DNA of 64,000 nucleotides from the NCBI RefSeq assembly GCF_016446475.1, contig NZ_JAEHFP010000009.1:1-64000 (forward strand), read 5' to 3'. The position numbers and the translations under genes were made by a program. Origin of the DNA: Paracoccus binzhouensis (GTDB taxonomy: Bacteria > Pseudomonadota > Alphaproteobacteria > Rhodobacterales > Rhodobacteraceae). Shown here in pieces: positions 12,714 to 37,326 of the stretch. Position 1 is the first letter of the stretch; each line of letters starts with the position of its first letter. The notes under the pieces are model-generated. The model was not told the DNA's origin. It made no database searches and saw only the letters and a list, made by a program, of their open reading frames with translations.

Positions 12714-12715
12714 GC

Positions 12716-17237: not shown

Positions 17238-17401
17238 TCCGTATTCTTGTCGCTTTGGCTGCGCTCGGCGCGCTGGCCTCCTGCACCCAGTACCGGGAGC
17301 CGCAGGCCAATTGCTTCACATTCCTCGCCTCCACGACAGCCATCTCGCCTGATTGCACATTCACGCCCCTTGGCGCACCGGAGGGCGACATTGAAGTCTA
17401 G
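17234..17401 (+). CDS. Small lipoprotein in the virB operon (VirB7-position)
   Basis: A 55-residue protein with a clear lipobox: MIRILVALAALGALASC, so Cys17 would be acylated. The mature peptide has two further cysteines. It overlaps virB4 by four bases (ATGA) and the next gene by eleven, so it is certainly in the operon. In the VirB systems VirB7 is the small outer-membrane lipoprotein that stabilises VirB9; by size and lipobox this is the candidate here, although its place after virB4 rather than after virB6 is unusual. An entry-exclusion lipoprotein is the other possibility. Confidence 0.7.
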   Translation: MIRILVALAALGALASCTQYREPQANCFTFLASTTAISPDCTFTPLGAPEGDIEV

Positions 17402-18545
17402 CCTGCCTCATATCCTGGCACTTTGCCTGCTGCCCGGTCTCGCTTTGTCTCAAGGCGTGCCGACCAATGACAGTGGGCTGACCGCGCGTGACATCGTCGA
17501 GACTGGCGATCGCGAGGCTGACTTGGCCGTTCAGGCCGACAAGCTTGCCGTGCGCGAACTCATCGCGGAGATCGAGCGCGAACAGCTGGAAACCCTGCAA
17601 CGCATCCTCGATGCCCAGACCAGCTTCGGCGGCCAGAGCTTGCCGGCTATGGTCTCGGGGCTAGAAAACGGCAGCGGCGATCCCGACCGCGCCGTGGAAG
17701 CCGTTTATGGCACGGGCGAGATCGACCCCAATCCCGGCGGTGCGCAGATGTTCGGGGATGCGGCAGAAAACATAGAGCAGCTCATCATCCGGGTCGCCCA
17801 GGAGACCAGCGGCTTTGCGGGTGTTGGCCGCGCAGGGCTCTCGCCTGTCCAATGGCGCGCGTTGCTGCAAGCGCTGATCTGGCAGGAAAGCCGGTTTACG
17901 ATTGGGGCACGGTCTCCCGTCGGCGCCTATGGCCTCACCCAGATCATGCCGGGCACCGCCAGCGATCTGGGCATCAACCCGGAATATTACGACAGCCCCT
18001 ACCTTCAGGTGCATGGCGGCGCGCGCTATCTCGCGACCCAGCTCAACACATTCGATGGCAACATCATCAACGCCCTCGCGGCCTATAACGCCGGACCCGG
18101 CCGGGTCTTCGAGTATGGCGGCGTCCCACCCTTCCGCGAGACCCAGCACTACGTCCAGGTTATCCCTGAACGCTACAATCTCTATCTGACCCGTATCGGC
18201 GGGATCGAAGCGCTTGGCACGATCGACCCCGCGCTTCTCGCCAATGCCAACCTCTCGCTCACGGGTCATGGGGCGGCCTTTTATGGCAGCAACTCACCCG
18301 CCGCGATCAGGCAAGCCGCCCTGCGTATTGCGGATATCGTCGAACGGATTTCCGAGACCGAGGATGTGCAGGAGAGCGTCGCGCTCAACACCTATGCCCG
18401 CGCCGAACTCGTGCGCCTCGTCGCTGCACGCATCCGACTTCAGGCGGCACGCACCCGCGTCCTTTCTGCCGAAGAGCTGGCCCAGGCCAGCGCCCGCATG
18501 GCCGAAGGCGCGTTCATGGATTTTACGATCAGGGAGATTGAATGA
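17391..18545 (+). CDS. Second SLT-type lytic transglycosylase of the virB operon
   Basis: TTG at 17391 is preceded by GGAGG and gives a signal peptide (MKSSLPHILALCLLPGLALS); the longer open frame upstream overlaps virB4 and is spurious. The protein has 384 residues: an N-terminal helical part (about 40-75), the SLT domain with catalytic Glu in LIWQESRFTIGARSPVGAYG, then ALAAYNAGPGRVFEYGGVP, and a long helical C-terminus. It is clearly different from the VirB1 encoded earlier. Having two transglycosylases in one system is not standard; one may serve donor assembly and the other another wall step. Confidence 0.85.
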   Translation: MKSSLPHILALCLLPGLALSQGVPTNDSGLTARDIVETGDREADLAVQADKLAVRELIAEIEREQLETLQRILDAQTSFGGQSLPAMVSGLENGSGDPDRAVEAVYGTGEIDPNPGGAQMFGDAAENIEQLIIRVAQETSGFAGVGRAGLSPVQWRALLQALIWQESRFTIGARSPVGAYGLTQIMPGTASDLGINPEYYDSPYLQVHGGARYLATQLNTFDGNIINALAAYNAGPGRVFEYGGVPPFRETQHYVQVIPERYNLYLTRIGGIEALGTIDPALLANANLSLTGHGAAFYGSNSPAAIRQAALRIADIVERISETEDVQESVALNTYARAELVRLVAARIRLQAARTRVLSAEELAQASARMAEGAFMDFTIREIE

Positions 18546-19354
18546 TGGGACATCTGCTCTTGAGGACAGCTTTGGCCACGACACTTGGCGTTGGCTTGCA
18601 GTTCAGCGCCCTACCCCCTGCCGCAGCACAAGGTGTACCGGTCGTCGACACCCAGAACATCGCGCAAAACATCCAGCAGCTGCGGCAGATGATCGAAGAC
18701 GAGATTCTGCAAAACGAGCAGCTGACGCAGCTCCGCGAACAGCTTGCCACACTCACGGATCAACTCGCGGAGCTGCAAAGAACCTATGAAGCGCTCACCC
18801 GACTTGCCGAGCTTCCCGAAATCATCCGGACGGAAATGGAAGACGAACTCAATGGCCTGCTCGACCAGGAGTTCGGGGACATCCTCGCCACGATTGAGGC
18901 GATCAAGACTGGGGATTTCTCGGGCCTCTCGGGCTCCGGCGCAGGCGAAATCGAAACCCAGATGGACCGGGTGCTGGCCGATCTCGGCTTCGATGAAGAC
19001 ACGCTCTCGGAAATGGCCACCAGCGGCAATCCCGGCGCCAACCGTGTCGCAACCCAGGCCACGACCGGCGCACTCGTCTCGGCCGCTGCCCAGAACAGCT
19101 ATGAAGACGCCGGGCAATCGCTGGAACGCGTCGACCGGCTGGTCGGGCTGATCGATGACATGGACGAACTGAAGGAAAGCATCGATCTCAACACGCGCGT
19201 GACAGCTGAATTGGCCATCGCCCTCGTGGCGATGTGGCAGCTGGAAGCGATTCAAACGGTGGGCGATGGCACCGGCGGCGTGATCGATGCCGCCACCATC
19301 GCCGAGGAGCAGCGCTTCATGGATTTCACCTTGCCAGCCCTCCGGGCAGACTGA
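18542..19354 (+). CDS. virB5: VirB5-like minor pilin
   Basis: A 270-residue secreted protein: signal peptide to about residue 29 (LPPAAAQG), then long coiled coils (QNIQQLRQMIEDEILQNEQ...LAELQRTYEALTRL) and a C-terminal helix bundle, the pattern of VirB5/TrbJ. Its start overlaps the previous stop (ATGATG region). VirB5 sits at the pilus tip and contacts recipients. Confidence 0.85.
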   Translation: MMGHLLLRTALATTLGVGLQFSALPPAAAQGVPVVDTQNIAQNIQQLRQMIEDEILQNEQLTQLREQLATLTDQLAELQRTYEALTRLAELPEIIRTEMEDELNGLLDQEFGDILATIEAIKTGDFSGLSGSGAGEIETQMDRVLADLGFDEDTLSEMATSGNPGANRVATQATTGALVSAAAQNSYEDAGQSLERVDRLVGLIDDMDELKESIDLNTRVTAELAIALVAMWQLEAIQTVGDGTGGVIDAATIAEEQRFMDFTLPALRAD

Positions 19355-19371
19355 TCGTGGGGGCCTGACGG

Positions 19372-20025
19372 GTGGCGACTGAACAAGAAATCATCGAGGA
19401 AGAACTGGTCTATGGTGCCTTACGCCGCGAACGGCTCTGGCAACGCCTTGGTCTGACAGGTCTTGTCTTCGGCATCATCGGCTGTCTGAGTGCCGCGGCT
19501 GTCTCGATCCTCGATGTCGACCCGCCCCCGGTTGTTGTCCCCTATGATCCCGCCACTGGTTTTGCCCTGCCCGAGGCGTCCGTTGGGGCCACATCCGTCA
19601 CCGCCAACCAGGCGATCATCGAGGCGGAGGTCTTCCGCTATGTGACCGACCGGGAAGTCTATAACCAGCTCGACAACGATCTACGCATCCGCAGCGTTCT
19701 GCGCCGCTCGGACGGGGCCGCCGAGAGCGGGTTGCGGCAGATCTGGAACAGCGCCAACGAGAATTACCCGCCAACCGTCTATGGCCCCAACGCCAGGCTC
19801 GACGTGGAAATCCTCAGCATCAACCGGATCGGAACCAACCGCGCGACGGTCCGCCTGCGCAAGCGCCTGACGTCCATTAACGGCACCCAGACCGGCCTCT
19901 TCACTACGACGCTTCTCTTCGAGTTCCGCCCGGAGACCCGCCGCTCCATCGATGAGGTCTGGACCAATCCATTCGGCTTCACCGTTCTCGAATATTCCAT
20001 CCGCTCCGACAGATTGGAGAACTGA
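19372..20025 (+). CDS. virB8: VirB8, inner-membrane assembly factor
   Basis: A 217-residue VirB8: short cytoplasmic N-terminus, one membrane helix (LGLTGLVFGIIGCLSAAAV), then a periplasmic NTF2-like domain with the family segment FRYVTDREVYN and the C-terminal LLFEFRP...NPFGFTVLEYS. It begins with GTG at 19372, 17 bases after virB5. VirB8 links the inner-membrane and core complexes. Confidence 0.92.
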   Translation: MATEQEIIEEELVYGALRRERLWQRLGLTGLVFGIIGCLSAAAVSILDVDPPPVVVPYDPATGFALPEASVGATSVTANQAIIEAEVFRYVTDREVYNQLDNDLRIRSVLRRSDGAAESGLRQIWNSANENYPPTVYGPNARLDVEILSINRIGTNRATVRLRKRLTSINGTQTGLFTTTLLFEFRPETRRSIDEVWTNPFGFTVLEYSIRSDRLEN

Positions 20026-20027
20026 CG

Positions 20028-20723
20028 TTGTTGTTTATAAGATCGCTTATTTTTGTCATTGCCCTGTTGCCCGGCCTCGCCTCTGCCGAAGCCATCCCGC
20101 GTGGCGGTCCCAACGACAGCCGCGTGCGCTTGGCCACCTACCAGGAGGGTCAGGTCTACCGTCTCAGCGTCTCGCTTACCCATGTCACCACGGTCGAATT
20201 CGGTGAGGGCGAAAGCATCCGCTCGATCATCGCGGGCGATACCGAGGGCTTCGAGATCGATGGCGTGCCGGGCGGGCAGGCCTTCGCGATCAAGCCCGTC
20301 GCGCGCGGTGTCCATACCAATGTGACGGTCTACACGAACAGGCGAAGCTACTATTTCAACGTCGAGGAGGTCCGCAGCCCGACCTTCTACGTGGTGCAGT
20401 TCCGCTATCCGGAGGACGATGCGCGCCCGACCCGGGCCATCGCCGCCCAAGCACCAAACTACAATTACGGTGCCAGCGCGCGGACCGAGTTCACGCCAAC
20501 CCGCATCTGGGATGACGGGACGTTCACGTATTTCGCTTTTCCAAGAAACGCGCCTGTGCCCGCGATCTTTCGCTACGCGGGCGGCCGTGAGCGCACGGTC
20601 AACACGCAAGCCCCTGAGGACGGCGTGATCCGCGTCAGCGGCGTGAACCGCCAATGGGTCCTGCGACTTGGCGAAGAGGTGGTCTGCATCGAGGCGATCC
20701 CGCCCGCGGAGGCCACCTCATGA
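20028..20723 (+). CDS. virB9: VirB9, outer-membrane core protein
   Basis: A 231-residue VirB9 beginning at a TTG two bases after virB8. Signal peptide MLFIRSLIFVIALLPGLASA. The N-terminal domain contains PRGGPNDSRVRLATYQEG and the C-terminal beta domain TPTRIWDDGTFTYFAFP with FVVNRQ-type ending GVNRQWVLRLGEEVVC. The stop overlaps virB10 (ATGA). Confidence 0.93.
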   Translation: MLFIRSLIFVIALLPGLASAEAIPRGGPNDSRVRLATYQEGQVYRLSVSLTHVTTVEFGEGESIRSIIAGDTEGFEIDGVPGGQAFAIKPVARGVHTNVTVYTNRRSYYFNVEEVRSPTFYVVQFRYPEDDARPTRAIAAQAPNYNYGASARTEFTPTRIWDDGTFTYFAFPRNAPVPAIFRYAGGRERTVNTQAPEDGVIRVSGVNRQWVLRLGEEVVCIEAIPPAEATS

Positions 20724-22099
20724 GCGATACCGGGAACACCGAGCTGGAAAGGCGCCTCGCCGCCCTTGAGAAAGGCAGTGCCCGCGCGCCCATAGCGGCG
20801 CAGCGCCGGTCGCCCCTTCTCGCGCTGGTCGTGGTCCTCGTCATCGGCGCGGGTGGTGCCCTGCTTTATCTCCTCTCACAGCCCGACGAAGAGGAAGCCT
20901 TGCCGACGGCCACTCCGGACGTCTTCCAAAACGAAGGGGATGGCTTTGGCGCTATCGAGACCTTGCCCCCGCCCGAGCCCGAGGTTGTGTTCGTCGGACC
21001 AGACCCCGTCGAGCCCAACGCGGAGCTTCTGGCGCAGATCACCGCCCTGCAGGCCCAGATCGAGGAGTTGCGCAACGCCCCTGAACCAGTTGTCGAGGAA
21101 GACACCGCCGCCGCAGAGGCAATTGACGCGCTGACCGCTCAGATCGCTGCGCTACAAGCCGCCTCGGAAGCCGCACAGCAACGATTCCAGGACGAACTGA
21201 CGGCGCGGGATCGAAGTCTTGAACAACTCCGCATGGATCTGGAACTGGCCCAACTCGAGGCCAGCCGACCCCAACCCGCCCCAGCGGGCCCCACGGAAGA
21301 TGAGCTGCGCGCACGCGAGCAAGAGCGACTGCGCCGGGAGGAAGAAGCCCGGCGCATGGCCGATCTGGAGCGCCGCGCCGCGGAGGAACGCGCCTTCCAG
21401 GAGCGGCGCATCGCCTCGCCCACCATCGCGTTTGGCGGCACGTCAGGAGCGAATGAAACGGCTCTGACTGAACGCACTTTTGGCGAGGTGACGGATTTCG
21501 TGCTGAACGGGGCGCTGCCCTCGACGGTGACGCAGGCCGAGGTAATCGCCAATCCCTCCAACACCATCATCCAGGGCACCATGATCCAGGCCGTCATGGA
21601 AACCGCCCTCGACAGCTCCCTGCCCGGCCAGACCCGTGCCGTGGTGTCCGAGGATGTTTACAGCGTCGATGGCGCGCGCCTCCTGATCCCGCGCGGATCC
21701 CGTCTTATCGGGCGCTACCGCGCCGGCGTCGATATCGCGCAGCGCCGCGTCACGATCGCCTGGGATCGGATTATCCTGCCCGCGGGCCAAACCGTCCAGA
21801 TCAGCTCCTTCGGGGGCGATGAACTGGGCCGTTCCGGTGTCACAGGTTTCGTGGACACGCGCTTTGCCGAGCGTTTCGGGTCGGCCGCCCTGATCTCGCT
21901 GATTTCGGCAGCACCTGGTGCCGCCGCCTCCGAGGTCCAGGATGAGACTACCGCCGACGTTCTCGAAGACGTTGGCGATGATCTGGCAGATGCCACGGAC
22001 AGCGTCATCGGCGATTACCTCTCCATCGGCCCCGTCATCTATGTCAACCAGGGCGCCCGCGTCACGGTCATGGTCGACCGCGATCTGGAGATATTCTGA
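20720..22099 (+). CDS. virB10: VirB10, channel scaffold
   Basis: I take the ATG at 20720 (overlapping the virB9 stop), giving 459 residues; the frame extends 66 bases upstream without support. One membrane helix (SPLLALVVVLVIGAGGALLY) is followed by a long Glu/Ala/Gln-rich periplasmic coiled coil (about 90-240) and the beta-barrel domain with GTMIQAVMETALDSSLPGQT, RLLIPRGSRLIGRYRAGV and a C-terminal ARVTVMVDRDLEIF. VirB10 spans both membranes and forms the pore cap. Confidence 0.94.
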   Translation: MSDTGNTELERRLAALEKGSARAPIAAQRRSPLLALVVVLVIGAGGALLYLLSQPDEEEALPTATPDVFQNEGDGFGAIETLPPPEPEVVFVGPDPVEPNAELLAQITALQAQIEELRNAPEPVVEEDTAAAEAIDALTAQIAALQAASEAAQQRFQDELTARDRSLEQLRMDLELAQLEASRPQPAPAGPTEDELRAREQERLRREEEARRMADLERRAAEERAFQERRIASPTIAFGGTSGANETALTERTFGEVTDFVLNGALPSTVTQAEVIANPSNTIIQGTMIQAVMETALDSSLPGQTRAVVSEDVYSVDGARLLIPRGSRLIGRYRAGVDIAQRRVTIAWDRIILPAGQTVQISSFGGDELGRSGVTGFVDTRFAERFGSAALISLISAAPGAAASEVQDETTADVLEDVGDDLADATDSVIGDYLSIGPVIYVNQGARVTVMVDRDLEIF

Positions 22100-22103
22100 G
22101 CCC

Positions 22104-23099
22104 ATGTCGCTGAGCTATCTGGAAACCTCACTCGACCGGATCGACGCCGCCGCCCGCGACGATGTCATCGAGATCTGCATCAACCCCGACGGGACCTGCT
22201 GGGGCGAATTCCAGGGCGATCACTTCATGCGCGCGCTGGACCAGAGGCTGACCGGCGTTCAGGTCAGGGACCTCGGCAACCAGATCGCCTCATCGGCCAA
22301 TACCACGATGAGCAAGGACCGCCCCATCGTCTCGGTTTCGATCACCTACAAGGGGCGCCCGATCCGCGCACAGGTCATCACCCCGCCCGCCGTGCTCTCG
22401 GCCATGTCGATCAGCCTGCGGTTCTTCTCAAGCCTGCCACTCGAGGGCATTGCGCTCGATTTCCTCTTCGGAAAAGAGCGCAAGCTCGAAGACCTGCGCG
22501 TGGAAAAGAAGCGCGCCTTGCGCGCAGTGGTGGCCGCTGGTTTGATCGATGATGCGCTGGCCTTCTGCGTCGAGAACAAACTCAACATGATCGTCTCGGG
22601 TGGCACCTCCACCGGCAAGACCGTCGCCGCGCGCAAGATCCTCTCTCACGTACCGGCCGAGGAACGCATCGTGACCATCGAAGAAGCGGCCGAGCTTTTA
22701 CCGACCCAGCCAAATGCCGTGACCCTCATCGCCAATCGTGACGCGGAATTCCAGACCGCCGATGTGCTTCTCACCGCCACGCTGCGCATGCGCCCCGACC
22801 GGATCATCCTGGGCGAGGTGCGCGGCAAGGAGGCCATGACCTTCCTCGAGGCCATCAACACCGGCCATGGCGGCTCCATGACCACGCTGCACGCAGAAAC
22901 CCCGCAACTCGCCGTGCAGCGGCTTGCGATCGCAGCGCTCAAGACCGAGATCCCCATGACCTATGCCGACATGATCCAATACATCGAGAATTCCATCGAC
23001 GTGATCATCCAGGCCGGTCGCCATGACGGCCGCCGCGGCATCACCGAATTTTACCTCCCCGGCGCAACTGAGATTGGAATTTCCCATGAAGACGTTTGA
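22104..23099 (+). CDS. virB11: VirB11, hexameric traffic ATPase
   Basis: A 331-residue VirB11 from ATG 22104. Walker A GGTSTGKT is at residues 166-173, the Asp box VTIEEAAELL and Walker B RIILGEVRGKEAMTFLEA follow, then the His box GHGGSMTTLHAE. It sits five bases after virB10 and its end overlaps the next small gene. VirB11 is the cytoplasmic ring that switches the system between pilus and DNA transfer. Confidence 0.95.
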   Translation: MSLSYLETSLDRIDAAARDDVIEICINPDGTCWGEFQGDHFMRALDQRLTGVQVRDLGNQIASSANTTMSKDRPIVSVSITYKGRPIRAQVITPPAVLSAMSISLRFFSSLPLEGIALDFLFGKERKLEDLRVEKKRALRAVVAAGLIDDALAFCVENKLNMIVSGGTSTGKTVAARKILSHVPAEERIVTIEEAAELLPTQPNAVTLIANRDAEFQTADVLLTATLRMRPDRIILGEVRGKEAMTFLEAINTGHGGSMTTLHAETPQLAVQRLAIAALKTEIPMTYADMIQYIENSIDVIIQAGRHDGRRGITEFYLPGATEIGISHEDV

Positions 23100-23280
23100 A
23101 TACAATATCCTGTCCTTTCCCATGACCCGTAAGACCATCCTCTCCGACATGCAGGCCAGCCTGAACGAGAAGGGCGCAGACGGGTGGGAGGTGGTGTCGA
23201 TCAGCACTTCGGAATTCGCCAATATCGGGCACACCGTTTTCCTAAAGCGCGAAACCACTACCATCGGAGCCACGGAATGA
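23086..23280 (+). CDS. Small DUF4177-like protein
   Basis: A 64-residue protein from the ATG at 23086 (overlaps virB11 by 14 bases). The pattern YNIL...LNEKGADGWEVVSIS...TVFLKR matches the short beta-alpha-beta DUF4177 fold. It overlaps the following gene by four bases (ATGA). No known role; the place in the operon suggests it is made with the transfer machine. Confidence 0.65.
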   Translation: MKTFEYNILSFPMTRKTILSDMQASLNEKGADGWEVVSISTSEFANIGHTVFLKRETTTIGATE

Positions 23281-23690
23281 AGCCGGCGCGGCTAACCCTT
23301 GCGCTAATCGCGCTGGCCGTGAGCCTACTGGCTGTCCCTGCCTTCGCCGAGCGCAATATGGTGCCGACCCTCGATCGCAGCTTTGACGTCTGTCCGGACC
23401 GGCCCGCTGAGCCCAACTGGATGCAAGAAATACCCCTGCGCCAAGCCTATCAACGCGTGTTGGTCCAGGATATCTACCGCGCCCAGAATCTCGAGCGCAT
23501 CATCGAGACCGAAAGCTGCGACTGTGAAATCCGGTTCCCGTCTTGGGACGCTGCCGAGGCGGAGTTTCATGAGCAGCACGCGAGTGACGAACGCTGGAAA
23601 ACGCTGGAAGCATCCGACGCCTACAATCAGCGCGCCAACGACGTTCGCCTTGAGGCTAAAGCCATCTGCGAAACCGCAGGCAATTGGTAA
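23277..23690 (+). CDS. Secreted hypothetical protein of the virB operon
   Basis: A 137-residue protein with signal peptide (LTLALIALAVSLLAVPAFAER). Four cysteines in the mature protein, including the pair in ESCDCEIRF, could form disulphides. It lies between virB11 and virB6 and is read in the same direction with overlapping ends. I recognise the position (seen in other Rhodobacteraceae virB clusters) but not the function. Confidence 0.65.
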   Translation: MKPARLTLALIALAVSLLAVPAFAERNMVPTLDRSFDVCPDRPAEPNWMQEIPLRQAYQRVLVQDIYRAQNLERIIETESCDCEIRFPSWDAAEAEFHEQHASDERWKTLEASDAYNQRANDVRLEAKAICETAGNW

Positions 23691-23702
23691 GGCAGCCCCG
23701 TT

Positions 23703-24779
23703 ATGAGCGTCGTCACCTATTTCGTTGAAACCTCCCAGGGCTATCTCGACACCGCCGCCGAAACCCAGTTCGGATCGGTTGCGGCAACGGTGGGCACACT
23801 TCTGGTGCTGGGAACAACACTCGTGGTGATCCTCGTCTTCCTGAACATGATCTACCAGTATAAGGCGATGGACGGGCGCACGGCCTTTTGGCTCGCGGTC
23901 AAGATCGGGCTCATCGGGATATTTGCAACCAACTGGGTGCAGTTCAACGCCCTCTCCTCCGCCATCTTGGCCGGGATCGACAGCATTGCGGGGGCGCTCG
24001 TGGCTTCGGTCGGCGGTGGAACTCCTGGCCCTTCTGGAACTTTCGCCGAAGAATTCGACCGTTTGATCGCCGAGTTGGGGGACTACTTGAATGCCGCAGG
24101 TTCAGAGTTGAACTGGATGGCCGGCGCCATGCTCGACATTGTCGGGGTCCTCTTGCTCTCGATACTCGGCGGGCTGGCCGCCTTCATCCTTGTGGCATCC
24201 CGCCTGATGATCGCACTTCTAATCGGGATCGCGCCGGTGATGATCTTCCTCACCCTCTTCGAGGTGACTAAAGATTACTTCGCACGCTGGCTGTCGGCAC
24301 TGGTTTCCTTCGCACTCTACCCAATCGTCGTCGCAGGGGTGTTCGCAACTATCACTGGCGTCTCTTCCGCTCTGATCGGTGAGCTTGGCGACCCGGAAGG
24401 GGCTTCAAACATAGGCGCGCTCATCCCCTTCTTCATGATGGTCCTCATGGCCAAGGGCTTCATCATTGCCACGCCCTTCATCGTCCGCGCGATCTCCGGA
24501 AACATCATGATGCCCGCCCTCTCCGGTGGTCTCGGCGGTGGCTACAGCTTTGCCCGCGCCGCAATGGGCAGCCAGCAGGTCTACAATCGCTATCTGATCG
24601 GCGGGGCAAGTGGCGCAGAATACGCCGCCCTCAGGGCGCGGCAGTTCTTCGGCGTGCAGCAGATGCCCGTGAGACAAGGCATGGGGCAGACGGGTTCCGC
24701 AGTAGGCACAGGATCCGCTGACTCGGGGTCAAAAATGCTGGCGCAGCTGGCGAGACTGGGTCGACTTGGACGACGGTGA
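23703..24779 (+). CDS. virB6: VirB6/TrbL, polytopic inner-membrane protein
   Basis: A 358-residue protein with five or six membrane helices (for example VGTLLVLGTTLVVILVFL, ILGGLAAFILVASRLMIALL, SALVSFALYPIVVAGVFA) and the TrbL/VirB6 motif IGIAPVMIFLTLFEVTKDYF. It ends the plus-strand virB operon and is followed after 43 bases by a convergent gene on the other strand. Confidence 0.92.
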   Translation: MSVVTYFVETSQGYLDTAAETQFGSVAATVGTLLVLGTTLVVILVFLNMIYQYKAMDGRTAFWLAVKIGLIGIFATNWVQFNALSSAILAGIDSIAGALVASVGGGTPGPSGTFAEEFDRLIAELGDYLNAAGSELNWMAGAMLDIVGVLLLSILGGLAAFILVASRLMIALLIGIAPVMIFLTLFEVTKDYFARWLSALVSFALYPIVVAGVFATITGVSSALIGELGDPEGASNIGALIPFFMMVLMAKGFIIATPFIVRAISGNIMMPALSGGLGGGYSFARAAMGSQQVYNRYLIGGASGAEYAALRARQFFGVQQMPVRQGMGQTGSAVGTGSADSGSKMLAQLARLGRLGRR

Positions 24780-24822
24780 CGGCCCTTCGCCGACGGTCGC
24801 TCACCTTGGTCGTCAATGTCCG

Positions 24823-26496
24823 CTAAAGGGTTGCAAGCAAAGCATCAACAAACTCTGACCTGACCGCGAGGAAGGGGATTGTCCGGTCGTCGTCGTTTGG
24901 CCCCCTAACGATTACGCCGACAACTTTTCCAGAGAATAGCACGGGACCACCACTCATTCCCTCGTAAGTTCCCGACAACAAGGCGATCACGTTATCGGAT
25001 GTGGCGGGCGTGCCGTCAAAGGTCTGCCGCGAGAAACCTGTCACCTCGGTGTCGCGGATCGTCAGAGACGTGCTGTCCAGATTGGAAGGATAGCCCGCAG
25101 CCTGCACCGCAGAGCGGATGCCGAGCGCTCCAGCTTCGGCTGTCGAGGCCATTTGCAGCGTGGCTGCTGGATTGAATGCGGGCATTGGAGTTCTTAACCG
25201 AATGAGCGCAAGGTCGTTGTGTTCGTCGCGGGCTACTTCGTCCGCTTCCATTGCGAATGCCGGGCTTTGTCGCGGAAAGATGCGCAGATTTGGTCCAAGG
25301 CAATGCGCGCAGGTCGCAAACAGGTTCTCGGCTACGGCGAAACAAGTGCCCACTGATCCACCATCTGTGTCATTTTCGAGATACCAAACGGCTGCGTTTA
25401 GAACCTCGCTATCCTCGACCAATGGAATCGAAAATTGTCCGCCCGAGGACAATGCGTTGAACCTCGCGGCAAGGCCGCGGAAGACCTGGTCAGTGGATCC
25501 CTTCACCTGCCGAATAAACTCTATTTTCCCTCGGAGCACCCATTCGAAGTTCGTAGCTTCCTGCTCCGGCAACCGGCCTCTATCTGGGCGCTTATCGTTG
25601 AAGTGGCGTGCCGATGCCGCAGCATAGCCATTAAACTCCCAGTCATGAAGCATCGCCCTGACATCGCGAACAAATTTGCGCTTAACGTTAACTTTCTCAT
25701 TCACAACCAGACCGGTGACTTCCTGTTGAAAGGCGGCGCCCAGCAGTCGTGTCTTTGCGTGGTTAATTCTAAATCCGTTGTCCTCAATCATCTGCTGAAA
25801 GGTGTCGGATAGAATGAAGTCATCGTGGCTGTCGGGGTTTGCAAAACGTCCGATTGGCGCCGGAAAGGTCCTGCGATTGGAGGAGATTGTGATGTCATCG
25901 GCATATCGCGTGTAGGTGCATCCAAGTTGCCTGCAAAATCGAGCCAACTCAGCATCGAGTTTGTCTGAAACGATGTTTGCAAGTATTGGCGACAGTGCGG
26001 CGCCAGGCATCAGGACATGGGTTGTTCGAAGACTGCCTTCGACCTCCTTTTCTGTTTGAAAGCAAGCGATGTGCGCGATGAACTGGGCAATCTCTTCTGG
26101 ATAGTCATAAGGCGGGGCCATCAAACGCCCGCGAATGCGACCGAAGTGAATGGTCTCGAAGTAGTCTTCAAGGTCAATGTTGAGCACCCAGCGCTTACCG
26201 ACGTGTTGTCGAGCATTGCTCACTATGCTGCGTTGATGCCCGCCGACAAAACCGTGGACGTGGGCGCGAGGACGATAGTCGCTTTCCAGAAGGCGCAGGA
26301 TGTCACGCTGCAACCCGAGAAGCGCAATACGCGGTGCGCAAATACGCCGTGTCCCACCACTTTTCTTCGGTATGGTGAATTCTTTGTATCGCGCACCTGG
26401 AGCAAGTCCGTAAGCGATGTAGACAAATCTCTTCCGATAATTCCGGCGAAGCGCAAAGGCGATTTGTCTAAGGTTGGCAAAGGGCTTTAACGACAT
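24823..26496 (-). CDS. Retron-type reverse transcriptase fused to a trypsin-like protease
   Basis: A 557-residue fusion. Residues about 35-340 are a reverse transcriptase with the catalytic YADD at 198-201. Two marks of retron enzymes are present: NARQH (the NAxxH motif, 94-98) and VTG (260-262). Residues about 365-557 are a trypsin-like serine protease with the triad His398 (ATCAHC), Asp428 (HNDLALIRL) and Ser515 (YEGMSGGPV). Such RT-protease fusions are known among retrons; I cannot assign the type number. Model (inference): the RT makes an RNA-linked DNA that guards the protease, and phage disturbance releases it. A 436-base gap upstream should hold the template RNA. Converges with virB6. 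Confidence 0.85.
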   Translation of the reverse strand: MSLKPFANLRQIAFALRRNYRKRFVYIAYGLAPGARYKEFTIPKKSGGTRRICAPRIALLGLQRDILRLLESDYRPRAHVHGFVGGHQRSIVSNARQHVGKRWVLNIDLEDYFETIHFGRIRGRLMAPPYDYPEEIAQFIAHIACFQTEKEVEGSLRTTHVLMPGAALSPILANIVSDKLDAELARFCRQLGCTYTRYADDITISSNRRTFPAPIGRFANPDSHDDFILSDTFQQMIEDNGFRINHAKTRLLGAAFQQEVTGLVVNEKVNVKRKFVRDVRAMLHDWEFNGYAAASARHFNDKRPDRGRLPEQEATNFEWVLRGKIEFIRQVKGSTDQVFRGLAARFNALSSGGQFSIPLVEDSEVLNAAVWYLENDTDGGSVGTCFAVAENLFATCAHCLGPNLRIFPRQSPAFAMEADEVARDEHNDLALIRLRTPMPAFNPAATLQMASTAEAGALGIRSAVQAAGYPSNLDSTSLTIRDTEVTGFSRQTFDGTPATSDNVIALLSGTYEGMSGGPVLFSGKVVGVIVRGPNDDDRTIPFLAVRSEFVDALLATL

Positions 26497-26511
26497 GGGT
26501 GCATCAACGAC

Positions 26512-26652
26512 CTACAATCTCGCATTCCCAACATCGCGGGAATTTCGCAATTCCGTAACAGCATGTAGCGGGGCGAGTTGAAAGTAACCTTCTCGCAGGT
26601 GTCGCAGGTAACACAACACTTGGTTGATTGCAGGCCGCTGATGCTCGGTCAC
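26512..26652 (-). CDS. Small ORF or gene remnant upstream of the retron RT
   Basis: From GTG 26652 this frame encodes 46 residues with a strongly coding look (INQVLCYLRHLREGYFQLAP, then LHAVTELRNSRDVGNARL). The same frame is open without a start for about 60 bases further upstream, and another frame from ATG 26716 starts plausibly (MTAMEATDTLPPLPPLKDQD), so the two may be halves of one protein of about 67 residues broken by a one-base shift near 26652. Not recognised. If real, it reduces the space left for the retron RNA to 26717-26932. Confidence 0.4.
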   Translation of the reverse strand: MTEHQRPAINQVLCYLRHLREGYFQLAPLHAVTELRNSRDVGNARL

Positions 26653-26716
26653 GTGTATCTTGATCTTTGAGTGGAGGCAACGGTGGCAGAGTGTCGGTTG
26701 CTTCCATTGCAGTCAT

Positions 26717-26932
26717 TCATTCGGAGTGCAGCGAATGGCTGCTTCCCGTCCCGACCACGACCAAGTCGTTTCCGGCCCTTTGCTGCCATTCGCGCTCCGT
26801 TCTAAATCGTGCATCTTCACAACTGTTTCGTGCCATACATTTAGGCGGCATGATTACAGGCGCTCGTCCCGACCTGAGTGCGCGATAAACAGGACGACAA
26901 CAATCGCCGGCTGACTGATTGCTTTCGCAACT
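26717..26932 (-). ncRNA. Candidate retron msr-msd template RNA region
   Basis: The region lies upstream of the RT on its strand. It contains a long hairpin: 26782-26793 and 26731-26742 pair at 11 of 12 positions (GCGAATGGCAGC with GCAGCCATTCGC), and inside it 26757-26769 forms a perfect ACGAC-TTG-GTCGT hairpin. An alternative stem CATTCG/CGAATG (26718-26737) shares one arm. I could not find convincing a1/a2 end repeats, and similar palindromic intergenic decay is common in this group, so this is only a candidate. Confidence 0.3.
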
Positions 26933-28836
26933 TTATGCGCGTGCAGCTTTCTTGATAAGCTCCAGTTGGCCGACCGCATAGCGCTCCACAACAACCAATG
27001 TTTCCCTGCAGGCGAGAACCAGATCATCAGGCGGCGGCGCCTCGTCATAGTAGGTACCGTGGCATAGGGAGTTGATCAGGACACTCTTGAGAGTCATGCC
27101 CTCCTCGCCCGCAAGATGCTTGACGAAATCTGTCAGGCTGTCGGACTTGTCCGGCCTGCAGAAGCGGCCAATTGCCTCCAGCACCGAGCGGACTGAATTT
27201 GCGGTCCTATGATCAGGGTCTTTGCCGTTCGCCACCTCGTGGATGTCCACCAATTGCTCCTGGAAGGGGGCGATGTACTTGTTCAGGCGTGCAAGACTGT
27301 GGCTCTTGCCGTCGGTGTGAAGTACAAACGCTGCATTATCATCGACCACACGGTTCGTAAGCGAAATATTGAAGAAATAGCTGCTGTGGGTGAGCAAGAG
27401 TAATTCCGGCCTCCAGCACTTTTTGCCATCAATCTTTCCTGGATTTATCGAAATCTCACCCTGATCCGAAATGTTCAGGTTCTTGAGAGTTTGCGCAATT
27501 GCGAAAACAAAATCATAAGACATTGACGTAATCGGATCGTCAAAGACGAGAAACAGCTTCTTATAATCACTACCTGTTGCTACCTTCTTGTGCGTGCATG
27601 CAATGAAATAACAGAAAGAAATTGCTGTCTTCTCGCCGTCACTCAACGTCCGATGCGTCCCACGAGCCATTTCCTGTTGGCCGCGCTTCAGCACAAACCT
27701 GGTCTTGTCGAAAACGTATTTGTCGGCGAAGAACTCTTTCAGGAGCAATTCAAAGGTCTCGGCAACACGATCCCGTGCTTGTGCCGACGGACTTGCCTTT
27801 TCCAGCTCACCCAAAGCGTTCTGCTTCAAGACAACATCGGCATGAAGTCCCCGCAGGTTTTCGATGTCGGGCCAATTGCCGATAGCGAATTCGCGCTCAA
27901 ACACCGCGCAGGCTTTGCGCTGTAGAGTCTTGCGCTCTTCATCAGCTTTCTCGACAGCTGAATTCAGCGCTTCCGCTTTCTCATTGTTTTCGCCGATGAC
28001 CTTGTTGATCGCCGCGATACAAGCGGACAGGTTCTCGGCAGGAAGCGCAGCCGCGGTTCCAAGTGCTGAGGCCTTCTGTTCGATCACCGACTTTATAGCC
28101 GCGATCGCTTCCTGCACGCTCTTCAGCGCATCCGCGCCGTCGCTGACTTCTGTATCCTTTTTCGATGGCACATGACGCTTAAGTGCGTCATAGCGGGACT
28201 TCTGCCTTGCAAGCTGGGTTGCCGTCGGATCCAGCTGCGCTTCCTTTTGTCTGAGCTTTCGAAAGAAGTCCCTCAATTCCGCTTTGTGTTTCTCTTCTTC
28301 GTCTTCAAAATATTCAATGTAGGCATCAATCACCGCCTTAGGATCAGGGTCCGTGATACCCTGTTCGCAGAAGGGGCATACGGTCCGGTGCTCATCTCGA
28401 ATGATCTTTGCGCCTTCCTCGTAAAAGCCGTGATGCGCATCGATCTTCTTCTTGATTGCGTCGGAGACACTTGATGGGGAGGTCGGGCGCTCAAGCGAAA
28501 CAGCAAGGGCGTCGAGATCGACATCATTGGTTGCAATGGGTTCAATTTGCCCAGGATAGGCAGGTTCTGCAGGTATTGCCTTGAGGCTATCGAGGTCCCT
28601 GATGATGTCGGTGAGAGATTGCTTCGGCGCTTCTGGCTTCTCTTGAAAGGTCTCCAGAAGCTTTTCCAGAGAAAGAGCCTTGTACTCTTTCAGTTGTTTG
28701 TTGATGCCTGCCTTCTCGTGCAGCTCGGATTCTTTCGCGGCGGTAAATTTGCCGTCAAGCGCATTGTATGCCTCGGAAACCTTCACCCTTGCTTCTTCCA
28801 GCACCTTCTTCGCATCATCGAGCTTGATGTTTTCGC
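26933..28836 (-). pseudogene. C-terminal part of an interrupted RloC/PrrC-like ATPase gene
   Basis: Residues 141-774 of a split gene (N-terminal part at 40809-41229). It shows a CPFC zinc-hook-like motif inside long coiled coils, an ABC-like signature HRTLSDGEKTAISFCYF, and Walker B LFLVFDDPITSMS, the arrangement of AAA_13 proteins such as PrrC and RloC. The C-terminal region has Arg-X3-Glu (VRSVLEA) and, 43 residues after the Arg, a His (NSLCHGTYY), which resembles the Arg/Glu/His set reported for these anticodon nucleases. The insertion removes the Walker A half, so this piece alone cannot be an active ATPase. Read-through from the IS end adds unrelated residues at its start. Confidence 0.8.
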
Positions 28837-28845
28837 TATCGACGG
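28837..28845. repeat. Target site duplication, left copy
   Basis: TATCGACGG directly precedes the IS left inverted repeat. The same nine bases occur at 40809-40817. Nine-base duplications are typical of the IS903 group. Deleting 28846-40808 and one copy restores the frame of the split ATPase gene exactly. Confidence 0.92.
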
Positions 28846-29893
28846 GGCGTTGTTGCGCAAATCCGGGAGGATTCATGTTGTGAATCCGGCATGCTAGCTG
28901 GGCAGCATGAGCAGACCTCCGAAGACGACCTACAAGACCACCAACTGGCAAAGCTACAATCAGGCGCTGAGGCAGCGGGGATCACTGACCGTTTGGTTCG
29001 ATCCCTCGATGCAGTGGGAAGCCATTCCGTCGGGGCGTCGCGGCCGTCAGCAGGCCTATAGCGACGCGGCGATCCAGGCCTGCCTCACCCTCAAGATCCT
29101 CCTCGGGCTGCCGCTCCGCCAAGCGACCGGTTTCGTGGCGAGCCTGCTCGAACTGTCTGGGCTCGACTGGTCCGTGCCGGACTTTAGCACTCTGTCACGC
29201 CGCCAGAAAACCTTGAACGTGATCATTCCGTATCGCGGCTCGAAGGGGCAGCTGCACCTGCTCGTGGACAGCACCGGCATCAAGGTGGAAGGTGAAGGTG
29301 AGTGGCATACGCGCAAGCATGGCGGCTCGAAACGGCGCGTGTGGCGCAAGATCCACCTCGGAGTCGACGAGGAAACATTGGAAATCCGGGCCGTCGAGGT
29401 CACGTCCAGCAATGTCGGCGATGCGCCGATGCTGCCGGACCTGCTTGCCCAGATCCCGGCGGAGGAGGAGATCGCCACCGTCACCGCCGACGGTGCCTAT
29501 GACACCCGCGCCTGCCACGACGCCATCGCCGCGCGCGATGCTGCAGCTATCATCCCGCCGAGACGGAATGCCAGGCCATGGAAGCCGGACACAGCCGGAG
29601 CCCGCGCGCGCAACGAGATCCTGCGAGCATCGAAGCACTTGGGCCGGGCGCTCTGGCGGAACTGGAGCGGGTATCACCGCCGCAGCAGGGTCGAAACAAA
29701 AATGAACTGCGTGAAGCTGCTCGGCCAGCGGTTGATGTCGCGGGACTTTGACCGCCAAGTGGCAGAGGTCCAGATCCGCGCGGCGGTCCTCAACCGCTTC
29801 ACGGCACTCGGTATCCCGATGACCGTGGCCGCGGGATAAGAGTGTCCGGGGAAAGGGCAAGTGCGATCATCAGCTGATTTGCGCAACAGCGCC
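28846..29893 (+). mobile_element. IS5-family element, IS903-like
   Basis: A 1,048-bp insertion sequence. Its 18-bp terminal repeats are at 28846-28863 (GGCGTTGTTGCGCAAATC) and 29876-29893 (reverse GGCGCTGTTGCGCAAATC), one mismatch. It carries one transposase gene. The bases directly right of it do not repeat those on its left, as expected if the duplication lies at the far end of the larger insertion. Confidence 0.92.
28907..29839 (+). CDS. IS5-family (IS903 group) DDE transposase
   Basis: A 310-residue transposase. The DDE residues are seen in LLVDSTGIKV (first Asp), TVTADGAYDTRACHD (second Asp) and HRRSRVETKMNCVK (Glu, with the IS5-family Tyr-Arg-Glu-Lys-like context). The N-terminus SLTVWFDPSMQW is typical of the IS5 family. 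The frame is intact, so the element could still be active. Confidence 0.93.
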   Translation: MSRPPKTTYKTTNWQSYNQALRQRGSLTVWFDPSMQWEAIPSGRRGRQQAYSDAAIQACLTLKILLGLPLRQATGFVASLLELSGLDWSVPDFSTLSRRQKTLNVIIPYRGSKGQLHLLVDSTGIKVEGEGEWHTRKHGGSKRRVWRKIHLGVDEETLEIRAVEVTSSNVGDAPMLPDLLAQIPAEEEIATVTADGAYDTRACHDAIAARDAAAIIPPRRNARPWKPDTAGARARNEILRASKHLGRALWRNWSGYHRRSRVETKMNCVKLLGQRLMSRDFDRQVAEVQIRAAVLNRFTALGIPMTVAAG

Positions 29894-30188
29894 GGATACG
29901 CGCACCCAGAACGATCAGCGCCAGCGCATCGAGGGCGAGGCTCTCCAGGCCAACCCGGTCGATCACGTAGACGATCGTGCCGAAGACGGGAAGGTTCTCG
30001 ATACAGTTCATATGCGCGCGCATCGCCCTCGGGTAGAGACCGGCGCCAGCGTTCGGATCGGCCGTCCAGTGGCTCGCGCGCGTGCGACCGCTGAGAATGC
30101 GCACCCAGCGATAGGGGCCGACGAAGGCAAAGAGAATGAGAAGAGTCCAGAGCGCGAAGCCAAGGAGTGCCAGAAGGGGGATTGTCAT
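29894..30188 (-). pseudogene. MAPEG-family membrane protein, 3' end lost to the IS
   Basis: The N-terminal 98 residues of a MAPEG protein (membrane-associated, eicosanoid/glutathione-type family): MTIPLLALLGFALWTLLILF, the conserved RAMRAHMNCIENLPVFG (the RAxxNxxEN-like signature), then LESLALDALALIVLGARI. After this the frame runs into the IS right end and stops inside it (29799). The last membrane helix is missing, so it is probably not functional. Its truncation shows that the IS was already in this gene before the large insertion formed. Confidence 0.8.
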
Positions 30189-30331
30189 CTTCGTCCTTTC
30201 CTGTGCGCGAAAACCCGAGCCAGTGTCGTCCGCGACTTGGCCTCGGGCGCGGGTCGCGTCACTATTGGACCGCCCCTCCCCCGGAGGCCAAGCGACAACC
30301 TTTCCAGAGCGGAAACGTCAGGAAGTGACAG

Positions 30332-30781
30332 ATGACCCGGAACCGAGCCGAGACGATCTACGACACCCCTCTCCCCGAGGAGTTGCGCCTTGCGGTGCGC
30401 GTGCAGACGCAGGCGCAGATCATCGAATGCCTCAACCGGTTCTACATGCTCGAGACCGAGATGTGGGGCAAACCGGTCGATGCGTTGATCGTGCGGATGG
30501 TGGTGCAGGGTCGGCTTCAGGGGCGGCTTTATGATCTCAGCGCGCTCTCGGCCGCGCTCGGGCTTCCGATCGCCACGCTGCATCGCAAGGTCGCGGATCT
30601 TGTCGAAGGCGGGCATCTGCGCCGGGAGCGGCGGGGAAAATCCGTTTACCTCGTGCCGACCGACGAAACCTGCGGGGCGCTCGATGAATCCTTCGAGGCC
30701 ATGGTTGCGGCGCTGCGTCGCCTCTATCGCGGGGGCGTGCTGAAGGAGGGCGAAGGGGACGGGCCTTTCTGTCCGCCCTGA
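30332..30781 (+). CDS. MarR-like winged-helix regulator
   Basis: A 149-residue DNA-binding protein. Residues about 65-115 form a winged helix (LSAALGLPIATLHRKVADLV, then the wing GHLRRERRGKSVYLVPT). Long N- and C-terminal helices probably make the dimer interface. It is divergent from the MAPEG gene with 140 bases between them. The regulated genes are unknown. Confidence 0.75.
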   Translation: MTRNRAETIYDTPLPEELRLAVRVQTQAQIIECLNRFYMLETEMWGKPVDALIVRMVVQGRLQGRLYDLSALSAALGLPIATLHRKVADLVEGGHLRRERRGKSVYLVPTDETCGALDESFEAMVAALRRLYRGGVLKEGEGDGPFCPP

Positions 30782-30985
30782 GGATCGCGACAGGGACCGG
30801 GGCGGGCGAAGAGGCGTCACGGATTTGCGCCCCCGAGAGACGGCGGACGCGCCCACTGCCCTCGATCGAACGGGGCAAGGTAGCTACGTGCGCCGACAGC
30901 GTTCCAGCCCCCCGCGAAAAGCGGGAGGCTGGTCTGATTTCGGGCAGGCCAAGGCCCTTTCGCTTTGCCGGACCTGCTTGCGCCC

Positions 30986-32023
30986 TCAGGCGTTGAGAAT
31001 GACTTTCATCGCCTTCTCGCGCGCGGCATTCGAGAACACCTCATAGGCGTCGAGGATCTCATCGAGCTTGAAGCGGTGCGTCACGAGCTTGGCCGGGTCG
31101 ACCTTGCCCGAACCCAGCGTCTTGAGAAGCATGGGCGTCGTGTTGGTGCTGACCAGCCCCATCGAGATGTTGATGTTCTTGATCCAGAGCTCTTCGATAT
31201 GCAGCTCGACCGGCTTGCCATGCACGCCGACATTGGCGATCGAGCCACCGGCGGAGACGATCTTCTGACAGGTATCGAAGGTCGCGGGCACGCCCACCGC
31301 CTCGATGGCGACATCCACGCCAAGCCCTCCGGTCATCTCCATGATCCGTGCGACGACATCATCCGCCCCCACCTGAAGCGTGTCGGTCGCGCCGAATTGC
31401 TTCGCGAGTTCAAGACGCGCCGGGTCCATGTCGATCATCACGATCCGGCCCGGGGAATAGAACTGCGCGGTCAGGAGAACCGACATCCCCACCGGCCCCG
31501 CGCCGATGATGGCAATCGTATCACCCGGTTTGACGCGGCCGTATTGCACACCGATCTCAAGCCCGGTCGGCATGATGTCGGAAAGCATCACCAGCGCCTC
31601 TTCATCGGCACCTTCCGGGATCGGATAAAGCGAGTTGTCGCCATGCGGGATGCGGACATATTCCGCCTGCGTGCCATCGATCAGGTGCCCGAGGATCCAG
31701 CCGCCATCGGAGCAATGGGCATAGAGCTGACGCTTGCAATTCGCGCATTTCCCGCAAGAGGTCACGCAGGAGATCAGCACCGGATCGCCGGGCTTGAAAT
31801 TCGCCACGGCATCGCCGACCGCCTCGACGATACCGACGCCTTCGTGGCCCAGGGTGCGCCCGGGCGTGACCGCGGGCACATCGCCCTTGAGAATGTGAAG
31901 ATCCGTGCCGCAGATCGTCGTCTTGGTGATCCGCACGATCACGTCGGTCGGTTTCTCGATTTCGGGTTTTTCCTTTTCGACCCAGCTTTTCTGCCCCGGT
32001 CCGTTGTAAACAAGCGCCTTCAT
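30986..32023 (-). CDS. Zinc-dependent secondary alcohol dehydrogenase, likely 2-propanol dehydrogenase
   Basis: A 345-residue medium-chain dehydrogenase. Catalytic zinc ligands are in TTICGTDLHIL and GHEGVG; four structural-zinc cysteines in SCVTSCGKCANCKRQLYAHC; NAD(P)-binding GAGPVGMS. It is the family of isopropanol/secondary-alcohol dehydrogenases. Next to acetone carboxylase, the fitting reaction is 2-propanol to acetone. It has its own promoter region with a TGTCCG/CGGACA palindrome shared with the acetone genes and is cut off from acxC by a terminator. Confidence 0.85.
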   Translation of the reverse strand: MKALVYNGPGQKSWVEKEKPEIEKPTDVIVRITKTTICGTDLHILKGDVPAVTPGRTLGHEGVGIVEAVGDAVANFKPGDPVLISCVTSCGKCANCKRQLYAHCSDGGWILGHLIDGTQAEYVRIPHGDNSLYPIPEGADEEALVMLSDIMPTGLEIGVQYGRVKPGDTIAIIGAGPVGMSVLLTAQFYSPGRIVMIDMDPARLELAKQFGATDTLQVGADDVVARIMEMTGGLGVDVAIEAVGVPATFDTCQKIVSAGGSIANVGVHGKPVELHIEELWIKNINISMGLVSTNTTPMLLKTLGSGKVDPAKLVTHRFKLDEILDAYEVFSNAAREKAMKVILNA

Positions 32024-32101
32024 GACACGCCTCCCAGCCTGTGTTCGCGGGCCGGTTCACCGGCCCCGGATGCGACCCTAGCGGCACCAGCGGCAGCGCG
32101 C

Positions 32102-32120
32102 CTGTCCGGTTTTCGGACAG
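32102..32120. promoter_or_regulatory. Candidate AcxR operator upstream of the alcohol dehydrogenase
   Basis: CTGTCCG-GTTTT-CGGACAG, a perfect 7-bp inverted repeat with a 5-base spacer, 79-97 bases upstream of the start codon. A further half site CGGACA lies at 32138-32142. The same motif is found upstream of acxA and acxR, so a common activator, presumably AcxR, is inferred. Confidence 0.65.
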
Positions 32121-32143
32121 CCCGTGCGAGAGCCGTCGGACAC

Positions 32144-32178
32144 CAAAAAGCGCCGCGCATCCTGAAGATGCGCGGCGC
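32144..32178 (-). terminator. Terminator after acxC
   Basis: A 12-bp perfect hairpin (32150-32161 with 32167-32178, arms GCGCCGCGCATC) followed on the minus strand by a run of five T. It lies just after acxC and separates it from the alcohol dehydrogenase gene. Confidence 0.88.
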
Positions 32179-32196
32179 CAGTCTCGGGGCGCCCGA

Positions 32197-32700
32197 TCAG
32201 GCGGCCCGCTCGGGGATCTTGAGGCCCAGCCAGTCGGTGTAGAAGGCGTCGATATCGGGCTCGAAATCATGGATCACCGGATACCAGGGCGTCGGCGCCT
32301 CGACATCGAGCAGATCGCCCGATTTCGGACAGTAATATTCCCGGATCACCTGCCAGTCCGAAGAAGGCGCCATCAGCTTGGGATAGAGCTCTTCCATTTC
32401 CTCGGGGGTTTCTCGGACGCGCATCACCGCGTGCAGCTTCCAGTTCTCGCGCCAGTCGCAGAATTCGTGACCGGCCTGCGATTTGACCACCCATTTCTTG
32501 TCCGAGGCCCGCTGCACGATATAGAGCTTGGGCCCGAGCGGCAGAATGATCCTGTCATCCCACGGGACCTGCTCTTGCAGGATCTCGAGATATTTGACGA
32601 AGCGATCCGCATCCTTGGGCGTGGAGAGCATCGTCTGCAGGGTGTCGCGGTCGATCTTGCCATCGACCAGGTCTTTGATCTTCGCTTTCGTGTAAGCCAT
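32197..32700 (-). CDS. acxC: Acetone carboxylase gamma subunit
   Basis: A 167-residue gamma subunit of acetone carboxylase, the heterohexameric enzyme that makes acetoacetate from acetone, CO2 and ATP. The sequence has the conserved CDWRENWKLHA...RVRETPEEMEELYP middle and the YYCPKSGDLLDVEAPTPWYP zinc-like segment of the family. It follows acxB after 60 bases and is the last gene before a terminator. Confidence 0.93.
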   Translation of the reverse strand: MAYTKAKIKDLVDGKIDRDTLQTMLSTPKDADRFVKYLEILQEQVPWDDRIILPLGPKLYIVQRASDKKWVVKSQAGHEFCDWRENWKLHAVMRVRETPEEMEELYPKLMAPSSDWQVIREYYCPKSGDLLDVEAPTPWYPVIHDFEPDIDAFYTDWLGLKIPERAA

Positions 32701-32760
32701 TGCTTTTCTCCTGAGTTTCTCGGGGCGCCGTGCGGGAGGCGGATACGGCGCCCCGCGGGA

Positions 32761-35070: not shown

Positions 35071-35091
35071 TGGTTCTTCCTCCCTTGGCCG

Positions 35092-37245: not shown

Positions 37246-37326
37246 GAAAAACTCCTCCCTTAGCCAAAGCCGGCCCGACCTGGGCGCGGCTGAGTCACAG
37301 GATGGCAGCGTGATTTCAGGTCGCGG

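Follow-up and report, generated by a model that had tools for sequence, protein, structure and literature searches.

The window analysed here, a 64,000-nucleotide (nt) stretch of Paracoccus binzhouensis (contig NZ_JAEHFP010000009.1, positions 1 to 64,000), contains an open reading frame (ORF) that joins a retron-type reverse transcriptase (RT) to a trypsin-like protease, together with a conserved RNA immediately upstream of its start codon. The element is almost certainly a type XI retron, and its features are collected in Table 1. A preliminary description of this DNA had outlined such a fusion over the interval 24823-26932. That interval takes in the ORF and the whole 436-nt gap before it; the RNA occupies only 26501-26644, and the inserted unit described below reaches to ~26772.

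The RT-protease fusion and its RNA partner

Both halves of the protein bear the marks that had been ascribed to them: the retron motifs NAxxH, YADD and VTG accompany a Pfam RVT_1 match at residues 42-252 (E 4e-21), and a full His/Asp/Ser triad accompanies a Trypsin_2 match at residues 383-528 (E 8.6e-14; 52.9 bits against a cut-off of 27.6). The best PADLOC model was RT-Protease_XI (PDLC02960; E 8.2e-150), which aligned residues 3-552 with model positions 3-502 of 506. The strongest model of another type, RT-TIR_XII (E 7.2e-103), covered residues 21-365 only. RT-Toprim_I-C models matched only inside residues 2-379, and a C-terminal Toprim domain is absent, the C-terminus being the protease. 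By its full-length match, the protein therefore belongs to a catalogued retron class, type XI, in a numbering that reportedly goes back to Mestre et al. 2020.

Conservation was assessed across 31 aligned RT-proteases, comprising the window and 30 loci, with the near-copies L001, L010, L007, L008 and L033 counted in. Asn94 and His98 were each found in 30 rows (one gap each) and Ala95 in 29; the Asp pair of YxDD and Thr261 were found in all 31, and Val260 and Gly262 in 30 each. The preliminary description had raised loss of the triad in relatives as a point to check. The triad was retained in 31 of 31 rows, a set chosen partly by its Ser motif: a script had kept the 30 loci that showed YxDD and G.S[GSA]G together with either the His or the Asp motif. 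L011, with an internal deletion, and L034, with its C-terminus cut by IS3, were lost at this filter, and nine loci had been excluded earlier, being either duplicates or DNA of a different kind.

An AlphaFold2 model built from 46 aligned sequences of the window and related loci (mean pLDDT 86.2, pTM 0.67) was compared with solved structures using VIA-align 2; an earlier model from nine close sequences (pLDDT 41.5) was discarded. The RT part superimposed on retron Eco2 (9i2f_C) over 321 residues with Z 31.2 and a root-mean-square deviation (rmsd) of 2.5, and Eco2 was also the nearest RT among solved chains by sequence (phmmer E 6.9e-44). The protease part superimposed on plant Deg2 (4fln_B; Z 25.1, rmsd 2.0, 181 residues) and on DegP (8f0a_A; Z 24.2, rmsd 2.3, 187 residues), an HtrA/Deg assignment also backed by sequence searches of solved chains. 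It shares fold and triad with HtrA/Deg (S1C) proteases, but has no PDZ domain among its Pfam matches and is fused to an RT. Among the matches listed from a viral fold library were trypsin-like, RT, RNA-polymerase or polyprotein entries (best row E 5.3e-13 over 353 columns), which were not used.

The gap upstream of the RT had been noted for a long imperfect hairpin and as the place of a possible RNA partner, and both were borne out. Segment 26497-26645 of the minus strand folds with -62.6 kcal/mol, beyond chance expectation (z -5.4; 0 of 200 dinucleotide shuffles equally stable). The predicted RNA element of ~145 nt abuts the RT start and fills the RT-proximal third of the gap. Relatives conserve this stretch, often without conserving the sequence farther upstream. 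The msr stretch (positions 26-77) was invariant at 46 of its 52 positions in an alignment of 13 copies, compared with 8 of the following 47. The RNAalifold consensus holds 42 pairs, six of them changed on both sides. Counted over 11 distinct rows, pairing holds in 98.3% of cells, against a mean of 95.8% in shuffles, and the six double-change pairs stand against a shuffled mean of 1.2, with 0 of 500 shuffles getting to six, although this control overstates covariation because the aligned rows are related. Sliding the alignment by 1-3 columns lowered pairing to 30.8-47.2% of cells and left zero to three double-change pairs. The a1/a2 helix is paired in 99.5% of cells over its 19 pairs, of which 11 are invariant, six show one-sided changes, one a two-sided change (UA to CG) and one an unpaired cell; another pair is seen as GU, GC and AU.

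With a covariance model built from the close copies, RT-strand matches were obtained in the window and at 14 loci (15 sources in all), and every one of them directly precedes the RT start. The same model matched the opposite strand weakly (best E 0.0002, in L002), as expected of an inverted repeat. The RNA partner of this RT-protease is present, as a conserved, covarying a1/a2 RNA. An Rfam search of 24500-29500 with E up to 5 returned only mir-52, on the plus strand at 29171-29201 and far under its gathering score.

Table 1. Features of the retron locus; positions are those of the window
Feature	Position	Strand	Basis or remark
RT-protease fusion ORF, 557 amino acids (aa), ATG start	24823..26496	minus	PADLOC and Pfam
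Reverse transcriptase domain, ~residues 1-352	25441..26496	minus	AlphaFold2 model against retron Eco2 9i2f_C
NAxxH motif (NARQH, residues 94-98)	26203..26217	minus	alignment
YADD catalytic motif (residues 198-201)	25894..25905	minus	alignment
VTG motif (residues 260-262)	25711..25719	minus	alignment
HtrA/Deg-like trypsin-fold protease domain, ~residues 356-557	24826..25431	minus	Trypsin_2 and structure alignment
Catalytic His398 codon	25303..25305	minus	His in 31/31 rows
Catalytic Asp428 codon	25213..25215	minus	Asp in 31/31 rows
Catalytic Ser515 codon (GMSGG)	24952..24954	minus	Ser in 31/31 rows; Ser motif partly a selection criterion
a1 strand GCATCAGCGGCCTGCAATC	26626..26644	minus	19-pair helix with a2
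msr, two hairpins (26599-26619, 26573-26596)	26571..26625	minus	near-invariant in 13 aligned copies
Putative msd, sequence-variable, weakly defined hairpins	26520..26572	minus	exact ends inferred
a2 strand GATTGTAGGTCGTTGATGC	26501..26519	minus	last base 4 nt before RT ATG
Retron cassette, absent from pSMR1-7, AAGGGCCG at both edges	24791..26772	minus	collinearity with NZ_CP022422.1 (L038/L039)
AAA_13 gene adjoining the retron	26933-28951	minus	PADLOC candidate defence family PDC-S06, E 4.5e-108

Relatives and their RNAs

A search of genome contigs yielded 17 loci; the close ones are L001-L011, with 71-100% identity in their best segment. Further RT-proteases were found on viral contigs (L031, L053-L055, L057-L060, L066, L075 and L117, partly from the best 80 of 388 matches), on plasmids (L034-L037 and L132) and in other genomes (L033, L040, L041, L043, L050 and L051). 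Relatives in Phaeobacter and Haematobacter lie on plasmids typed as conjugative, MOBP/MPF_T.

RT-proteases are sparse in genome samples. At the order level, 2 of 390 genomes matched at 1e-60, one of the two being the window's own. At the phylum level, 9 of 398 matched PDLC02959 at 1e-80, four of the nine (own included) over the full model, and in the class of genome G1068 the count was 3 of 360 at 1e-115. The window's class gave 11 of 385 matches to PDLC02960 at 1e-60; all but its own ended within the RT half of the model, and these were not retained by the protease filter; by eye they resemble RT-Toprim or RT alone. In a tree of 61 RT segments the label "protease" changes six times, and well-supported branches force at least two changes. 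The protease fusion therefore either arose repeatedly or has been lost or replaced in places, and a single origin is unsupported.

Several relatives deserve separate mention. The Phaeobacter plasmid copy L034 (6001-7545) is decayed, its C-terminus cut by IS3, as is the Epibacterium copy L011 (6001-7379), which has an internal deletion. L005 (1818-2185 and 5989-7560) was split by rearrangement, leaving the RNA and first RT codons ~3.8 kb from the remainder. A Bacillus arachidis plasmid bears a full-length RT-Protease_XI (L132, 2944-4749; E 3.5e-170). The close copies L009 (71%) and L006 (79%) fall in metagenome bins labelled Puniceicoccaceae (Verrucomicrobiota) and Pimelobacter (Actinomycetota), respectively, a placement that may reflect wide transfer or misbinning. 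The genome of the window itself holds a second RT-like stretch (G000:C235:24566-24967), 42% identical to residues 21-148 within a 204-aa open frame.

As proposed in the preliminary description, homologous loci were searched for a1/a2 repeats, with a positive outcome. Inverted repeats spanning 70-190 nt were sought at 24 RT-protease loci (the 30 minus the five near-copies and L051), seven in the window's clade and 17 distant, with 40 dinucleotide shuffles each. The best repeat near the estimated start was equalled in 0 of 40 shuffles at 15 loci and in 1 of 40 at four (L035, L036, L043 and L053); these 19 loci include 13 of the 17 distant ones, and their repeats span 120-149 nt. Repeat sequences differ between clades, yet across the loci, L005 apart, the span is 120-156 nt and ends close to the start. 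The RNA ends of L037 and L040 were picked by eye to take in an imperfect stem. As a positive control, 24 other retron loci (mostly RT-Toprim by eye; L056 was without an anchor) were put through a like scan with 20 Markov-resampled controls. Most of them gave a1/a2-type repeats, and the scan therefore detects RNAs of known kind.

RT-protease loci differed from these comparison loci in how closely a2 adjoins the RT start. An in-frame start lies within a2 or no more than 15 nt past it in 16 of 21 RT-protease loci compared with 4 of 18 comparison loci, where the first in-frame start is mostly 16-38 nt beyond a2 (13 of 18). The contrast is rough, as any in-frame ATG, GTG or TTG counts and 4 of the 21 RT-protease loci are of the window's own clade; the 18 comparison loci, mostly RT-Toprim-like as judged by eye, are 25 minus L046 (a copy of L023), L056 and the weak-repeat loci L024, L025, L062, L063 and L093. 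L036, L040, L043, L060 and L117 depart from the pattern, and judged by eye the a2 of L043 would fall in the first codons if the methionine of MVDITLVPP is the start.

An inserted unit and its neighbours

The window is collinear with pSMR1-7 (NZ_CP022422.1), a conjugative plasmid of Pseudosulfitobacter pseudonitzschiae (MOBP, MPF_T), at 11092-24790 and 26773-28845. In pSMR1-7 nothing lies between the two collinear matches, which overlap there by 11 bases. The ~1.98-kb unit missing from pSMR1-7 consists of the RNA, the RT-protease and short flanks. Since pSMR1-7 matches on both sides without it, the RNA and RT-protease are an inserted unit. The AAGGGCCG at both edges may have arisen by duplication of the target or may belong to the cassette; L005 carries an end similar to this edge at another place. 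A dispersed repeat at the edges was considered as an insertion route and set aside, the exact pattern occurring once in the genome, in the window.

The retron had been placed between virB6 and virD4. It does lie between VirB6/TrbL (23703-24779) and a VirD4-type coupling protein (41520-43532), in company with the adjoining AAA_13 gene and a 12-kb insertion. The insertion (28846-40807) splits the AAA_13 gene relative to pSMR1-7, L001 and L010, and the 5' part of the gene continues from 40808. In L010 (Sulfitobacter sp. F26204) the retron sits at the same place, collinearity with pSMR1-7 extends over the whole AAA_13 gene, and this gene alone separates the retron from the coupling protein. Gene families other than the RT-protease were compared among 27 loci (ORFs of at least 90 aa, blastp 1e-6), and none was common to more than three, within flanks that are short (~1.5-6 kb) in many loci and with MBL-fold genes not searched by profile. 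Because no neighbour family is widely shared and pSMR1-7 holds the whole AAA_13 gene without the retron, the retron appears to stand alone, and the AAA_13 gene appears to be a defence candidate in its own right.

Elsewhere in the window, the left end of the 12-kb insertion lies near a DDE transposase gene (28907-29839), and hydantoinase A/B genes occupy 32761-37485. Positions 68-8113 contain the BREX genes brxA, brxB, brxC and a 532-aa pglX-like gene, the last two separated by a pair resembling HEC-02A/HEC-02B.

Type XI assignment, proposed mechanism and alternatives

Like retrons of type XI (PDLC02959/PDLC02960), the element has a single gene encoding an RT with a C-terminal trypsin-like protease, matched over the full length. 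No feature found here excludes membership, and the PADLOC models are protein-only, the RNA having been found independently. RT-protease retrons are thus already catalogued, which lowers novelty; what is added is the located RNA and the plasmid without the unit. RT-TIR_XII shares an RT with a C-terminal effector, but its match here stops short of the protease. Retron-Eco2 (Ec67, RT-Toprim, type I-C) shares a single RT-effector chain, terminal a1/a2 RNA repeats and the closest solved RT, and differs in its effector, a Toprim RNase. Proteases are listed among genes found with retrons in passages of PMC8867640, and type XI is absent from the available passages of PMC8867640, PMC13405049 and PMC12548924. 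One literature match concerned a type XIII retron of Variovorax. By title and abstract opening, no experimental study of an RT-protease retron was found in a literature that excludes most subscription papers and the founding classification.

Passages of PMC12405507 describe the RT-Toprim and multicopy single-stranded DNA (msDNA) of Retron-Eco2 as a self-inhibited trimer and report that its isolated Toprim domain is toxic and the full fusion is not. Four escaper phages had denB mutations, and phage DenB is the proposed trigger, on indirect evidence (PMC12405507). By analogy, the RT of the window would prime on msr and copy msd into msDNA, and the resulting msDNA-RT-protease complex may be self-inhibited, with msDNA holding the protease off. 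Should msDNA be degraded or modified, by phage nucleases or other factors, the protease would be released and could cut one or more essential proteins of the cell (or phage). Infection would thereby be stopped, probably with loss of the cell. We regard this abortive-infection mechanism as having about an even chance of being correct. As no partner gene was seen travelling with the retron, the protease most likely acts on some host or phage protein that is widely conserved, or else cleaves its own fusion and so releases itself. The overall account, in which a type XI retron forms a stand-alone, two-part unit of RNA and RT-protease with an msDNA-gated protease, we consider probable.

Several points weigh against this account. 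Besides the relatedness of the aligned rows, invariant pairs dominate the RNA alignment (11 of 19 in a1/a2 and 13 of 14 in msr). The covariance model of close copies gave no match in distant RT-protease loci, and the kinship of distant RNAs therefore rests on position and architecture. Repeats were weak in 5 of the 24 loci tested (L054, 4/40; L060, 9/40; L037, 17/40; L040, 26/40; L005, 26/40, where the test took the wrong region and the RNA was located elsewhere). A simple scan of 24600-27000 found no minus-strand promoter and one plus-strand site, where 1.0 was expected. RT-proteases do not form a single clade in the RT tree, and some relatives (L034, L011 and L005) are broken. Finally, msDNA synthesis, proteolysis and phage defence are predicted steps inferred from Retron-Eco2.

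Alternative roles for the protease and the RNA were weighed against the same evidence. The protease might be an activator that, once released, cleaves and switches on a separate pro-effector. There is precedent in PMC12799240: according to its passages, defence enzymes of Hachiman, AVAST, Lamassu and DRT systems can carry a fused trypsin-like protease and have a nuclease gene as partner, and proteolytic activation of an MBL-fold pro-nuclease was demonstrated in Hachiman and AVAST. In those pairs, as the passages have it, the protease is N-terminal and the nuclease gene lies immediately upstream, whereas the protease here is C-terminal and, within the short flanks and without an MBL profile, no neighbour family is common to more than 3 of 27 loci. 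The AAA_13 neighbour, moreover, exists without the retron in pSMR1-7, and we judge an activator role unlikely, a distant, unlinked partner being easier to credit than a linked one. That same neighbour could itself be the retron effector or an accessory, being adjacent, on the same strand and a strong PDC-S06 match. It was rejected as a partner: pSMR1-7 has the whole gene and no retron, the window's AAA_13 ORF is unmatched among the ORFs of 26 other loci (within their flanks), and the gene is split in the window while the retron is intact. We give this possibility almost no weight.

The setting among type IV secretion, relaxase and coupling-protein genes, and the relatives on conjugative-typed plasmids, would also suit a plasmid-stabilising or competition module in toxin-antitoxin style, with the msDNA complex as antitoxin, the protease as toxin and phage defence incidental. 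Plasmid stabilisation would not apply to L003, on a 4.25-Mb scaffold, or to others on viral-collection contigs, and the cut-short copy L034 persists on a plasmid; such a role seems distinctly improbable. It is still harder to credit the upstream hairpin as only a leader or attenuator of RT expression, with the RT working without msDNA. Because a2 so closely adjoins the RT start, in the window and in most RT-protease loci, the stem is in a good position to influence translation. On the other side, the RNA has the terminal a1/a2, msr hairpins and variable middle described for Eco2 in passages of PMC12405507, most RT-Toprim-like loci yield a1/a2-type repeats in the like scan, and NAxxH and VTG, both marks of retrons, are conserved. 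We hold a leader function alone to be very unlikely.

Returning to the msDNA-gated protease, the position of a2 suggests a more specific version, which we offer tentatively and with considerable doubt. As a2 abuts or contains the start codon, the RNA that templates msDNA and the RNA that is translated would be separate molecules, which may make the ratio of msDNA to protease self-limiting. A partner-free cassette of ~2 kb would spread, and its msDNA-gated protease would kill through a universal protein. If true, this would be a retron effector killing by protein cleavage.

The element is a well-preserved type XI retron, of interest for its putative protease effector, for a compact RNA set directly against the start codon and for the natural comparison that the plasmid offers. 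The retron effectors named in passages of PMC12405507 act on RNA, NAD+ or membrane; with a protease effector, protein cleavage would join these modes of action. The system is small, self-contained and testable: its RNA ends and catalytic residues are identified, and intact homologues are available along with a plasmid that lacks the unit. The short msr-msd, in which msr hardly changes and msd varies, may also be of interest where retrons are used for in-cell DNA production.

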